Assembly (NCBI GenBank): GCA_902756345.1
Contig: CACVQR010000011.1
Coordinates: 62,001 to 126,000, forward strand
Source of the DNA: Fibrobacter succinogenes
GTDB taxonomy: Bacteria; Fibrobacterota; Fibrobacteria; Fibrobacterales; Fibrobacteraceae
Length of the DNA stretch: 64,000 nucleotides
Direction of reading: 5' to 3'
In this document: positions 50,445 to 57,363 of the stretch, in pieces
Layout: each line of letters begins with the position of its first letter
Position numbering within the stretch: position 1 is the first letter of the stretch
The notes under the pieces: generated by a model
What the model was told of the DNA's origin: nothing
What the model saw: only the letters and a program-made list of their open reading frames with translations
Database searches by the model: none
Position numbers and translations under genes: made by a program

Positions 50445-50741
50445 TTATTCGATAGTCAGAATGTCGCAGAACCCGGTCACTTCGAAAATTTCCTTGATTT
50501 CGGAGCTTGCGTTCTTCACGACCATGGAACCTTGCTTGTTCATCACCTTCTGGGCCATCAGCAGAATGCGCAGTCCTGCCGAAGAGATATAGTCCAGGCT
50601 CTTGAAATCGAACACCAGCGACTTCACGCCGTCAAGCTTGCCCTGGATTTCGGCATCGAGCTGCGGAGCAGTCAAGGTATCCAGTCTTCCTTTGAGAGCA
50701 ATGGTCAAAGAATCGTTATCGTTAGTCTTTGTAATCTGCAT
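50445..50741 (-). CDS. STAS-domain anti-sigma factor antagonist
   Basis: 98 residues, one STAS domain: LTIALKGRLDTLTAPQLDAE, LVFDFKSLDYISSAGLRILL with the phosphorylatable Ser (S53/S54), then VVKNASSEIKEIFEVTGF. These proteins are dephosphorylated by SpoIIE/RsbU phosphatases and then titrate an anti-sigma kinase. AAGGA precedes the ATG. 46 bases downstream of the SpoIIE-type phosphatase gene, with which it forms an operon and a plausible signalling pair. Confidence 0.92.
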   Translation of the reverse strand: MQITKTNDNDSLTIALKGRLDTLTAPQLDAEIQGKLDGVKSLVFDFKSLDYISSAGLRILLMAQKVMNKQGSMVVKNASSEIKEIFEVTGFCDILTIE

Positions 50742-50787: not shown

Positions 50788-53241
50788 TTACAAGGTTTTT
50801 GTGATGGCGAGTTCGTTATTTTCACCATTTCTGCGGTAACTCACGCTATCCATCGTCTTTTTCACAATGAAAATTCCGAGTCCGCCGATTTCGCGTTCTT
50901 CGGCCGGAAGCGTTATGTCGGGATCGGCCTGCTTAATCGGGTCGTAGGGTTTGCCGTTGTCGATAAAGGTGAGCCTTGCGGTAAGGGTCGCCTTTCTGAC
51001 TTCCACGATCAAGGTCACGCGGGTTGCGCCCGAGAACTTCACGATGTTGCTGTAGATTTCGTCGATAGCGATGTTGATCTGCATCTGCGACTTCATGGAA
51101 CCGTCCATGGGCGCAAGAATTCCTTCGACGAACGCGGTCAATATGTCCTGGTTTTCGGGGATTACGTCCACTATCTTTTCATAACGCTCCCAAGCGTCTT
51201 GCATTTGCATTTTCTTTGCTCCATCCATTGGTGTCAAGATGTCTTCTACAAACGATTTGAGTTCACCCTTGTTGTTGCCCGAAACGTCAATCGTTTTTTC
51301 GTAGCGTTCCCACACGGGTTCGTCGCTTCCGTTGAATTTGACGGCGAGCATGGTGATGTCGTCGAATTGAGGAACATCCTGTACGAATTTGTCGATTTCT
51401 TTTTTGACAAAGGTACATGTATTGGCGGTGTCCAAGTCGCCGCTTTTCTTAATTGTTTCGAGCAGCCTGTCGTCTCCGAACAGTTTGTTCTCGCTGTTGG
51501 TTGCTTCGGTCACACCGTCGGTGTAAAGGAACAGGGTGTCGCCTTTTTTCATTTCATAAGACTGCTGCTTGTAAACGGTGTCTTCCATGGCGGCCATCAC
51601 GAGCCCTGCCTTACTGGGAATAAATTCCACGGAGCCGTCATTATGTCGTACGACAGGTGGGTTGTGGCCCGCCGAGGCAAAGTCAATATGTCCTGTACGC
51701 AGGTCGATAATGCCTGCCCAGACCGTTACGAACATGTTCAGCCGGTTGCGTTTGGCGAGAGCGTAGTTGGTTTTATTGAAAGCGTCAACGACAGACTTCA
51801 AGTTCTTGGTCATGGTGCGGAGGATTATTCGTGCGACCATCATGAACAGGGCTGCGGCAACGCCCTTGCCGGACACGTCGCCAATCACTACGCACAAATG
51901 ATCGTTGTCGATTTTAAAGAAGTCGTAGAAGTCTCCGCCCACTTCCTTGGCCGGTAGCAGGAACGGTGCAAGTTCGTGGCGGTCATCATCGGAGTTTTCA
52001 TCTCGTTCTTCGCCGGGGAGCATCGAGAGCTGAATGTTTCTTGCAAGGTCCAATTCGCGCTCGATGCGCTTCATGTCTTTTTGCTTTTCGATGTTGTCCT
52101 TAAGTTCGGTGAGCATATTCGAGAATGCCCATGCAAATTCTGCAACCTCGTCGCGGCCTTTCATTTTTGGAATGGCGACGTCGAAGTTTCCGCGTCCTAA
52201 TTTTCTTGCCGCCAAGGCCAGTTCCTTCAGCGGTTTTGCCACGCGGAAAGAAATCAGCAAGATAATCACGAATATGATACCGTAGCCGCCGAGAGCCATC
52301 AGCAGGAATAGCCTGCGCATGGCGCTCTGGTCTTCCAGGTATTTCTGAATGGGCCACACGACCATGAATGTCCAGTTGGTCGAATTGATGGTGGTGTAGT
52401 AAATGGCCGATTCTTCGCCGTCGGCAACCGTACCGATAAACAGCCCGCTGCTGTCGCGGCCTTTGCGGTCAAAATCGATTAGCTTCTGTCCGCGCTTTTC
52501 CCTTACAATAATGTCGCGGTTTCTTTTTCCTTGGGCAAGTTCCTTGGGGTACGCCACAGCCAAGTTCTTGGCGGTGGTAACCAAGGCGTATCCGGAGTTC
52601 GAAACAGGAATCGATCCGATTTCTTCTTTCAGGAATTCGATGGACATGTCAACGGCAAGCACGCCGACTAGCACGTCTTCGCCATTCTTGTCTTTCTTGA
52701 AAAGGGGAACGGTGTAGACGGCGATCGGTTCCGGAACAAATTCACCGATGAACGGTTCCTGCCAGCGCGATGTCTTGCCGTCCCTGGTGCTGGCGTACCA
52801 TTCCTTGTCTTGGTAATTGGCGCCGGTCACGAGCTTGGTATCGGTGTGATTGAAGCGGGCGAGCCTCATGTATTCACCCTTCGGTGTTTCAGGGCCCATG
52901 CCCGGTTCGTAGGCGACTACCACGGCGACCACTTGGGGCACCAGGTTGCGGGCGTTAAAGAGCGACTGCAGCAAAAAGTCGTCCATGTCGCTTTTGGTCA
53001 TGGGGTGATCGGTCAGTTTGTGCGACAAGTCCTCGCCAATGAGCTTGCTTGCGTTAAAGAGCTTGTCGATGTAGTTCACGTTGGCGCGGCTGGTCTCTTC
53101 ACCGTTTTCGACAGTCATCTTGTTTAGCATGTTCTGAGTCTTGTAACTCATGATGCCAAAAATCAAGCCGAACACGATTGTGATGGCGGCCAAAATCATC
53201 AAGGATTGCTTAAAAGCGAGCCCGCGGAAATTAAATCCCAT
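50788..53241 (-). CDS. Membrane SpoIIE phosphatase fused to anti-sigma kinase-like HATPase
   Basis: 817 residues. Membrane segment (about 11-31), extracytoplasmic Cache-type sensor (about 35-300), second segment (about 305-328), HAMP (about 328-382), coiled coil, SpoIIE/PP2C phosphatase (about 405-625: LPAKEVGGDFYDFF, VIGDVSGKGVAAALFM, DDITMLAVKF) and a C-terminal HATPase_c domain (about 690-817: INIAIDEIYSNIVKF, GGLGIFIVKKTMD). A phosphatase and an RsbW-type kinase in one chain can both act on the neighbouring STAS protein. A 40-residue tandem duplication starts at each WERYEK (codons at 51310 and 51190). GAGAGGA precedes the ATG. Confidence 0.9.
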   Translation of the reverse strand: MGFNFRGLAFKQSLMILAAITIVFGLIFGIMSYKTQNMLNKMTVENGEETSRANVNYIDKLFNASKLIGEDLSHKLTDHPMTKSDMDDFLLQSLFNARNLVPQVVAVVVAYEPGMGPETPKGEYMRLARFNHTDTKLVTGANYQDKEWYASTRDGKTSRWQEPFIGEFVPEPIAVYTVPLFKKDKNGEDVLVGVLAVDMSIEFLKEEIGSIPVSNSGYALVTTAKNLAVAYPKELAQGKRNRDIIVREKRGQKLIDFDRKGRDSSGLFIGTVADGEESAIYYTTINSTNWTFMVVWPIQKYLEDQSAMRRLFLLMALGGYGIIFVIILLISFRVAKPLKELALAARKLGRGNFDVAIPKMKGRDEVAEFAWAFSNMLTELKDNIEKQKDMKRIERELDLARNIQLSMLPGEERDENSDDDRHELAPFLLPAKEVGGDFYDFFKIDNDHLCVVIGDVSGKGVAAALFMMVARIILRTMTKNLKSVVDAFNKTNYALAKRNRLNMFVTVWAGIIDLRTGHIDFASAGHNPPVVRHNDGSVEFIPSKAGLVMAAMEDTVYKQQSYEMKKGDTLFLYTDGVTEATNSENKLFGDDRLLETIKKSGDLDTANTCTFVKKEIDKFVQDVPQFDDITMLAVKFNGSDEPVWERYEKTIDVSGNNKGELKSFVEDILTPMDGAKKMQMQDAWERYEKIVDVIPENQDILTAFVEGILAPMDGSMKSQMQINIAIDEIYSNIVKFSGATRVTLIVEVRKATLTARLTFIDNGKPYDPIKQADPDITLPAEEREIGGLGIFIVKKTMDSVSYRRNGENNELAITKTL

Positions 53242-55698: not shown

Positions 55699-55954
55699 AT
55701 GGTATTCCTTTCTCCTTAGAGAAAAACGTTTCAAGACCGAGTTTTGAAAAAACTCAGCCCGATTGCAGCACTTTCGGTGCGTTTAATTTAAAGGGAAGGG
55801 ACCGATTTTGCAGTCCATCTAAAAAGCCATATAAAAATCATCAGGTTGAAGAACGTGTATAGTTCAACAAAAACTGATTGGGCTTAATTTAATAAAATGA
55901 TTGTAGAAAAACAAGCAAATCGCTCTCACAATAATTATTATTTTGGATGTGATT

Positions 55955-56662
55955 ATGAAATATTCTAAAAGCATTTTGTCTGTTAGCGTAGCATTCCTCG
56001 CACTATTGCTTTCCGCCTGTGACGACGGTTCATCCGCGCCCGAGGAGCCCGTTGACACCTTCGATGCGGCGGTGGTTTGCCCGGCAGACGGTATGAACGC
56101 TTACGGAGAACCGAACCGTGGCACCTTTACCGATGCCCGCGATGGTCAGGTTTATAAGTACACGACTATCGGCAACCAGGTATGGATGGCCGAGAACCTG
56201 AAATTCAACGCACCCTATAGCGTCTGCTACGACAAGATTGAAGGATACTGCGAAACATTTGGTAGATTTTATTCCCTCCATGAAAATGGTGAGTGGTTTG
56301 ATTTCTTTGACCAGGAATTATTGGATACGATTTGCCCCGCAGGGTGGCATGTTCCGTCTGTAGACGAGTGGACGTTATTGTCAATCTCTATGGGGGGTGG
56401 TGCAAAAGCGATCTACAGATTATATAGTTCAACAAGTTTCGGAGAAAATGGCAGAACTGGTTCGGACGATTGCGGATTTAATTCAAAACCAGCCGGATAT
56501 TGGCTTTCAAATGGGGATATTTCTGGAGAATATAGATTGTCTATTTATTGGACATCAACAGCCCGTAGCATGAAAACCGCCGAGGAATGTGCATTTAATC
56601 CTGAAGGAATTTATTTTTGGACGAATCAACATAGAATGTCCATTCGTTGCATAAAAGATTAA
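55955..56662 (+). CDS. FISUMP-domain lipoprotein, tandem copy 1
   Basis: 235 residues from the ATG at 55955. Lipobox LSAC (Cys 22), then DDGSSAPEEP linker and a FISUMP domain (YKYTTIGNQVWMAENLKF, FGRFYSLHENGEWFDFF, TICPAGWHVPSVDEW, SIRCIKD). The middle part is nearly identical in DNA to the next gene, offset 701 bases. The stop overlaps the next start as TAATG, so the copies are co-transcribed and coupled. Expected on the envelope; function unknown. Confidence 0.9.
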   Translation: MKYSKSILSVSVAFLALLLSACDDGSSAPEEPVDTFDAAVVCPADGMNAYGEPNRGTFTDARDGQVYKYTTIGNQVWMAENLKFNAPYSVCYDKIEGYCETFGRFYSLHENGEWFDFFDQELLDTICPAGWHVPSVDEWTLLSISMGGGAKAIYRLYSSTSFGENGRTGSDDCGFNSKPAGYWLSNGDISGEYRLSIYWTSTARSMKTAEECAFNPEGIYFWTNQHRMSIRCIKD

Positions 56663-57363
56663 TGAATTACCAAACGAAATTTTGGAGCGCTCTTTTTTTG
56701 GCCGCACTGTTTTCTGCCTGTGACGACGGTTCCTCCGCGCCCGAAGAGCCCATTGACACCTTCGATGCGACGGTGGTTTGCCCGGCAGATGGTATGAACG
56801 CTTACGGAGAACCGAACCGTGGCACCTTTACCGATGCCCGCGATGGCCAGGTTTATAAGTACACGACTATCGGCAACCAGGTATGGATGGCCGAGAACCT
56901 GAAATTCAACGCACCCTATAGCGTCTGCTACGACAAGATTGAGGGTTTCTGCGATACGTTTGGAAGGTTTTATTCCCTCCACGAAAATGGTGAGTGGTTT
57001 GATTTATTTGACCAGGAATTATTGGATACGATTTGCCCCACAGGGTGGCATGTTCCGTCTGTAGACGAATGGAGTGCATTAGCCAATAATATGGGTGAAG
57101 GAGCAAAAGCCGTTTCTAGATTAAATAGTTTCAAAAGCTTTGGGGAACACTACACACCTGGTTCCGATAACTGTGGATTCAACTCTTTACCCGCGGGTGC
57201 GTTGCTTGAAAACGGAGATCTTGAAGTTGTATATGTAACTTCCGTTTATTGGACTTCCACCGCCAAGGATTTGAGTTCTTCTTATTGCAGTTGGTTTAGT
57301 TCAAATGAAATTTCATTTGGAATAAACAGAGCCAAAATGACAATCCGTTGTGTAAGAGATTGA
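56662..57363 (+). CDS. FISUMP-domain lipoprotein, tandem copy 2
   Basis: 233 residues. Lipobox FSAC (Cys 20). Very close to copy 1 from the lipobox to about residue 135, diverging in the C-terminal third (variable loop with SYCSWFSSNEISFGINRAKM, then TIRCVRD). Start overlaps the previous stop (TAATG); two bases separate it from copy 3. The pattern of a conserved front and a diversified end suggests recent duplication with selection or conversion. Confidence 0.9.
   Translation: MNYQTKFWSALFLAALFSACDDGSSAPEEPIDTFDATVVCPADGMNAYGEPNRGTFTDARDGQVYKYTTIGNQVWMAENLKFNAPYSVCYDKIEGFCDTFGRFYSLHENGEWFDLFDQELLDTICPTGWHVPSVDEWSALANNMGEGAKAVSRLNSFKSFGEHYTPGSDNCGFNSLPAGALLENGDLEVVYVTSVYWTSTAKDLSSSYCSWFSSNEISFGINRAKMTIRCVRD

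Follow-up and report, generated by a model that had tools for sequence, protein, structure and literature searches.

A tandem duplication of the beta1-alpha1 unit in a putative one-chain partner-switching phosphatase/kinase of Fibrobacter succinogenes

Gene content and domain architecture of the locus

The gene described here lies on the minus strand of the window, i.e., the whole 64,000-nucleotide stretch of Fibrobacter succinogenes DNA that was analysed, at positions 50788..53241 (stop codon included). Its open reading frame and Pfam matches indicate an 817-aa membrane sensor phosphatase/kinase of the dCache-HAMP-PP2C-[beta1-alpha1]-HATPase_c_2 type, all parts of which are encoded on the same strand. 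The dCache_1 sensor domain (aa 137-292; 52366..52833; 47.0 bits in Pfam at a cut-off of 45) is followed by a HAMP domain, also assigned by Pfam (aa 331-381; 52099..52251), and by a SpoIIE/PP2C phosphatase domain (aa 446-636; 51334..51906), recognised by Pfam at E 7.6e-52 and matching the PDB structures 3ke6, 6k4e (SiaA), RssB, and SpoIIE. The C-terminal part is an RsbW/SpoIIAB-type kinase domain (aa 684-817; 50791..51192), identified by Pfam, by its motifs, and by structure alignment, with the best HATPase_c_2 stretch at aa 714-815. SpoIIE/PP2C and HATPase_c_2 each pass the Pfam cut-off within this single ORF, so that the phosphatase-kinase fusion proposed in a sequence-only reading of the locus stands. 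The RsbW and SpoIIAB NCBIfam equivalog cut-offs were not reached (22.6 bits against 145 and 20.7 bits against 135, respectively).

The motifs GDFYDFF, GDVSGKG, YTDGVTEA, and QFDDITML are present in the phosphatase part of the protein, and DEIYSN, FIDNGKP, and GGLGIF in the kinase part; we take them to be the phosphatase and kinase active sites, respectively. The kinase domain comprises an N-box (E728/N732), DxG (D761/G763), and GGLG (786-789), whose roles are presumably those of their counterparts in the family. In the source genome there is a single SpoIIE match and a single HATPase_c_2 match at E 0.001, both in this gene, and a mutant should therefore be easy to read.

Directly downstream of the fusion, on the same strand, lies the STAS gene that the sequence-only reading had placed there (50445..50741). 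It codes for a 98-aa single-domain protein of the anti-sigma factor antagonist type, as assigned by Pfam, NCBIfam, and its motif. Ser54 of this protein is situated within an ISSAG motif and presumably corresponds to Ser56 of RsbV. By analogy with characterised fused systems (HsbR, CrsR, and Rv1364c), the STAS protein is a likely phospho-substrate of the fusion, and opposing phosphatase and kinase action on it can be soundly inferred. Four STAS matches occur in the genome; the frames containing them are 649, 104, 229, and 371 residues long. That adjacent to the fusion is the only one of about 100 residues, while the 649-residue frame is, judging from its first residues, presumably a SulP transporter. 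No protein of the genome reaches the cut-off for a SigB/F/G-type sigma factor (best TIGR02980 score 97.1 bits, cut-off 234.35). Other sigma-70 proteins are present (six Sigma70_r2 matches), and a sigma factor of another type may be the target.

Elsewhere in the window, two adjacent ORFs of the plus strand (55943-56662 and 56647-57363) code for closely similar putative lipoproteins, both containing SACDDGSSAPEEP and a long common stretch, and apparently represent a recent tandem gene duplication.

The 40-residue repeat and the beginning of the kinase fold

The phosphatase domain is followed by two copies of a 40-residue sequence, which abut in register and repeat at an interval of exactly 120 bp (51312-51193 and 51192-51073 in the direction of the gene). 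Copy 1 (aa 644-683; 51193..51312) is an extra beta1-alpha1 unit, as indicated by self-alignment, pN/pS, relatives, and hhalign, and copy 2 (aa 684-723; 51073..51192) is the normal beta1-alpha1 unit of the kinase domain, as indicated by self-alignment, the AlphaFold2 model, and structure alignment. The copies are identical in 23/40 amino acids and 69/120 nucleotides; the top 40-residue self-match in 60 shuffles of the whole protein had 13 identities. The tandem repeat, first reported as two copies spaced by exactly 120 bases, is thus confirmed. The same codon is used at 4 of the 20 identical residues (Met and Trp excluded), which indicates that the duplication is old, with no sign of recent gene conversion. 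When the profile of copy 1 (28 sequences, filtered to 12, Neff 1.6) was aligned by hhalign with the first 39 residues of the single-copy kinase profile, a probability of 96% was obtained, with an E value of 2.1e-9 that refers to this one-against-one comparison. The hydrophobic positions of alpha1 (L661, F664, V665, I668, L669, and M672) are common to both copies, while the remainder of the copy 1 helix, on the opposite side, has diverged from copy 2.

In the predicted model of aa 634-817, residues 50-184 align to residues 1-139 of SpoIIAB (1th8; Z 17.0, 124 aligned, rmsd 2.6). Model residue 50 is the final residue of copy 1 (aa 683), and the alignment runs from there to the end; therefore the entire kinase fold lies from copy 2 onward, with copy 1 as an addition to it. 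Matches of this fold, from copy 2 onward, to 1th8, 6m37, and 1l0o reach Z 16.8-17.0. Modelling of the domain, which the sequence-only reading had suggested, thus yields a complete SpoIIAB fold (residues 683-817, Z 17.0) without copy 1. Among the 50 matches listed by VIA-align, only 6kko_B (SiaB, Z 12.8) extends well into copy 1 (to model residue 32), these being mostly kinase-domain matches by which copy 1 is barely probed. In Foldseek, the model of aa 384-817 gave 3ke6, the RsbU-RsbW domains of Rv1364c, as the best match (E 2.9e-21), and its PP2C domain resembles SiaA, RssB, and SpoIIE.

In both AlphaFold2 monomer models (aa 384-817 and aa 634-817) copy 2 is predicted with confidence and copy 1 with low confidence (block pLDDT values of 43-58-46-39 in one run and 65-70-61-52 in another), only the helices of copy 1 being given, without its strand. 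In a monomer model such values might fit a segment whose partner belongs to the other chain, or a loose one. In the crystal structure of the RsbV-RsbW complex, alpha1 and beta1 of RsbW are described to 'directly mediate the dimerization', and the beta1 strands of both subunits join in a cross beta-sheet (PMC7340262). Because beta1-alpha1 of RsbW is the dimer interface, the 40 duplicated residues correspond to a dimerisation element; the 'linker/ATPase start' label given to the repeat previously is made more precise by this assignment.

Distribution, origin, and evolution of the two copies

A search of 167 Fibrobacterota genomes with a profile built solely from two-copy rows found a match in 89 of them and both copies in 31, in 30 of which the match spans both; in the remaining one (G116) the gene carries both copies and then the contig ends. 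All the 31 genomes fall within the 80 listed for the genus of the window, of which 64 have a match and 16 do not. Two further matches, in G104 and G123, seemed to start inside copy 1, but when inspected each turned out to have one copy. Among the relatives collected first, from 60 genomes, both copies are present at 14/14 loci that have a close orthologue (L002-L015). Of these, L002 is the gene of the window itself, the others are 69-94% identical to it, and L015 is truncated where its contig ends. Taken by itself, such constancy would favour the view that both copies belong to the normal fold of the family. However, a single copy is found in the PP2C-kinase fusions L024, L026, L027, L031, L043, L044, L074, L075, L077, L078, and L079, as well as in those standalone kinases that were inspected, whose open frames are 134-147 residues long. 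The proposed alignment of homologues has therefore revealed many, fused and standalone, with one copy (e.g., L074, L043, and L044), contrary to the supposition that all of them could have two, and together with the SpoIIAB fold complete without copy 1 they rule out the normal-fold view, to which we assign a very low probability.

A second collection of loci, partly overlapping the first, came from sources named Fibrobacter, F. succinogenes included, and once Fibrobacterales bacterium. Both copies are spanned at 21 of its 22 loci, a yield biased towards two-copy genes because DEPVWERY was one of the two search patterns. The recurrence of the same repeat, with the copies diverged at the codon level, in 31/167 genomes and at 21/22 loci of this collection rules out an assembly or sequencing artefact, in favour of which nothing was found and which is the explanation of the repeat that is hardest of all to credit.

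The STAS gene adjoins the fusion at 31/35 two-copy loci, and a STAS neighbour was not found at the other four (L013, L068, L069, and L070), where the substrate need not be a neighbour. Within the stretches of DNA examined, the two-copy genes without an adjacent STAS are L013, L068/L088, L069/L083, and L070/L084; in the genomes of L013 (G033) and L088 (G114), a STAS gene is located elsewhere, beside another kinase or fusion (L032 and L074, respectively). Other arrangements also occur, the partner switch having been rebuilt as several domain combinations inside one genus. In G023 and G015, PP2C is fused to STAS and not to a kinase (L022:1117-2298 and L023:1258-2439, from the PP2C start to the C-terminus), and G015 contains a separate kinase-STAS pair elsewhere (L033). 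In G029 (L048:2399-7547), a two-copy fusion with its STAS gene is immediately followed by a second PP2C gene, devoid of a kinase, and another STAS gene, as two switch modules in tandem. The PP2C-kinase fusion of G034 (L024 and L047, which are the same gene) is apparently degenerate, with altered DxG and GGLG of the kinase; L077 (G118) and L078 (G141) resemble it and have the PP2C end DDAATL, against DDITML in others. Judging from these motifs, all three are possible pseudo-enzymes.

When 43 kinase domains were placed in a tree from copy 2 onward (L074 and L075 not among them), the 29 two-copy rows formed one clade (support 92/94). The single-copy fusions L043/L044 adjoin this clade (95/91), and further single-copy kinases surround it. 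A second tree, of 53 rows and without support values, includes L074 and L075, the closest single-copy fusions; 28/28 two-copy rows again form one clade in it. Five kinases that are divergent or degenerate (L089, L081, L047, L077, and L078) and identical rows were left out of this second tree. The PP2C-STAS fusions L022 and L023 were left out of alignment A1 and L024 out of alignment A3, and loci from L074 onward are in neither. A single two-copy clade is explained by one duplication on its stem. The closest single-copy fusion by identity is L074, the kinase of which is 66% identical and which is carried by the same genome (G114) as the two-copy L088. Its junction consists of the PP2C end, a short linker, W-E-K-H-E, and the kinase, which places the duplication most simply inside an already fused gene. 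A second fusion, in which the 'MQDAW' preceding copy 2 would preserve the start codon of a formerly standalone kinase, was considered on account of the many standalone kinases starting with MQN or MQD, and dropped because L074, L077, L078, and L024 likewise run from the PP2C end through a short linker to a W-E or W-D kinase start. A plain tandem duplication in the fused gene suffices as the origin, and the MQ resemblance is probably due to chance.

Pooled pairwise pN/pS in 29 distinct sequences is lowest in copy 2 (0.043) and the rest of the kinase (0.092) and highest in the cache domain (0.264) and PP2C (0.200), while copy 1 (0.175) and the seven linker residues preceding it (0.149) lie in between, with pS near saturation, pairs non-independent, and rows recognised by EPVWERYEK, which slightly lowers the linker and copy 1 values. 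In the distant orthologues L013 and L014, pN of copy 1 is 0.169 and 0.194 vs. 0.149 and 0.168 for PP2C. By these substitution rates copy 1 is evidently under purifying selection and has been retained. The earlier argument that the copies had diverged and so were kept is thus upheld in its conclusion, by purifying selection on copy 1 across orthologues, the divergence itself being no evidence for it.

Change is unevenly spread over the repeat. In the 53-row tree, 89 changes over 41 columns were counted in copy 1, mostly in the loop after the first strand, and 26 changes over 40 columns in copy 2. The copy 1 loop (SGNNKGE) is freely variable and accepts one-residue insertions, and L063 is two residues short near the end of the copy. 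WERYEKT of copy 1 is invariant in 28/28 rows, partly by construction, since the two-copy rows in the pN/pS, pairwise-rate, and 53-row-tree work were recognised by EPVWERYEK or DPVWERYEK; one or the other motif is present in 35/35 rows tried for pN/pS, and WERYEK is found also in all 13 orthologues from other genomes obtained by a whole-protein search. Per column and relative to the rest of the kinase, beta1-alpha1 changes at 0.87 in copy 2 vs. 1.40 in single-copy relatives (residues 690-723, genus only), a tightening that falls short of significance in the column bootstrap (ratio of ratios 0.61, 95% 0.26-1.14) and that is seen in pooled, non-independent pairs as well. A slower change of copy 2, as far as these rates go, would fit what an added contact predicts.

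A candidate mechanism and comparison with known systems

The reading we prefer, at a probability of roughly 0.45, is that of a one-chain partner-switching phosphatase/kinase whose extra arm docks on the beta1-alpha1 edge and so couples kinase dimerisation to the phosphatase dimer. The dCache sensor would act via the HAMP helix on the PP2C phosphatase dimer, which would take phosphate off the neighbouring STAS protein, to be rephosphorylated by the C-terminal RsbW-type kinase. Following tandem duplication of the first 40 kinase residues (beta1 and alpha1) in one Fibrobacter clade, copy 2 would have stayed at the head of the kinase fold, as its first strand and helix, and copy 1 would have turned into a conserved beta-alpha arm of its own, lying between the two enzymes. 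This arm would most likely dock on the beta1-alpha1 edge of copy 2, in its own or the sister chain, where it might replace or flank the usual kinase-kinase contact and tie kinase dimerisation to the dimer state of the phosphatase. Related phosphatases have been proposed to be switched by coiled-coil linkers dimerising their phosphatase domains, and a HAMP-linked one is described among those modelled (PMC12143880). In a bolder version, which we regard as rather doubtful, copy 1 would act as an internal decoy for the interface of the kinase dimer, pairing with the edge of copy 2 to give a pseudo-dimeric kinase per chain, with the pairing switched by the phosphatase/HAMP dimer. If this were true, a 120-bp duplication would have brought a GHKL kinase that was constitutively dimeric under allosteric gating by the phosphatase fused to it.

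Copy 1 could instead be a spacer with no specific partner, the longer linker allowing phosphatase and kinase to reach the same STAS protein. The low pLDDT of copy 1 and the tolerance of its loop to substitutions and indels agree with this, as do the short linkers of differing lengths in the single-copy fusions, from which linker length itself appears to vary. However, the preservation of LK.FV, ILTPMDG, and QM is unexpected for a pure spacer, the changes in copy 1 are concentrated in the loop, and its pooled pN/pS is close to the value for the catalytic PP2C domain, which leaves the spacer a somewhat unlikely explanation. Unlikelier again is a docking site for another protein, be it STAS or another output target: alpha1 of RsbW also touches the STAS partner, so that a second alpha1 could hold it or compete for it, and the diverged face of the copy 1 helix would suit such a role. 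On the other hand, the contacts described between RsbW and RsbV, made by alpha1-alpha3, include alpha2 and alpha3, absent from copy 1 (PMC7340262), and four of the 35 two-copy loci are those at which no STAS neighbour was found.

To our knowledge, it is an open question how proteins of the HsbR, CrsR, and Rv1364c types, which carry both enzymes in one chain, escape a futile cycle on the STAS protein that these share. The natural two-copy clade, in which just the dimerisation element of the kinase is doubled, offers with its close single-copy relatives as controls a comparison by which kinase dimerisation can be addressed as a control point; the single-copy L074 and two-copy L088 occur in one genome (G114). 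Apart from this, the repeat is an embellishment, within one lineage, of a signalling architecture already known.

Among known systems, SiaA of the Pseudomonas aeruginosa SiaABCD system is the top NCBIfam match (aa 322-636), and its PP2C structure 6k4e matches as well, but the score of 81.6 bits is far under the 700-bit SiaA cut-off. SiaA has the dCache-HAMP-PP2C layout, SiaB is encoded separately, and SiaC is not regarded as a STAS protein of the classic type. RsbW and SpoIIAB share the kinase fold from copy 2 on (Z 16.8-17.0), whereas the kinase described here is fused and has the extra beta1-alpha1 in front. PP2C and an RsbW-type kinase in one chain are found in HsbR and CrsR, whose input, which we take to be a response-regulator receiver, is unlike the dCache-HAMP membrane sensor of this protein; RpoS/FlgM-type outputs pertain to their side of the comparison. 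In HsbR/HsbA of P. aeruginosa and CrsR/CrsA of Shewanella oneidensis, a one-chain PP2C and RsbW-type kinase/anti-sigma domain act oppositely on the STAS partner, and no beta1-alpha1 duplication is mentioned in the passages on which this comparison by description is based (PMC6482189). Rv1364c of Mycobacterium tuberculosis is a fused system with a phosphatase and a kinase acting on STAS; it has PP2C followed by the kinase in one chain and provides the best Foldseek match (3ke6), and it differs in its PAS input and in having STAS in the same chain (PMC9138534). The kinase of 3ke6 aligns only from model residue 49, two residues before copy 2, and this alignment to a predicted model suggests a single beta1-alpha1 in Rv1364c. 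Among the open-access papers listed, nothing was found on partner switching in Fibrobacter or on beta1-alpha1 duplication in RsbW-type kinases. The architecture itself has precedents, on which the kept, doubled dimerisation element is a variation confined to one clade; the protein is best read as a one-chain partner-switching phosphatase/kinase of the established HsbR, CrsR, and Rv1364c kind that has retained an extra dimerisation arm.
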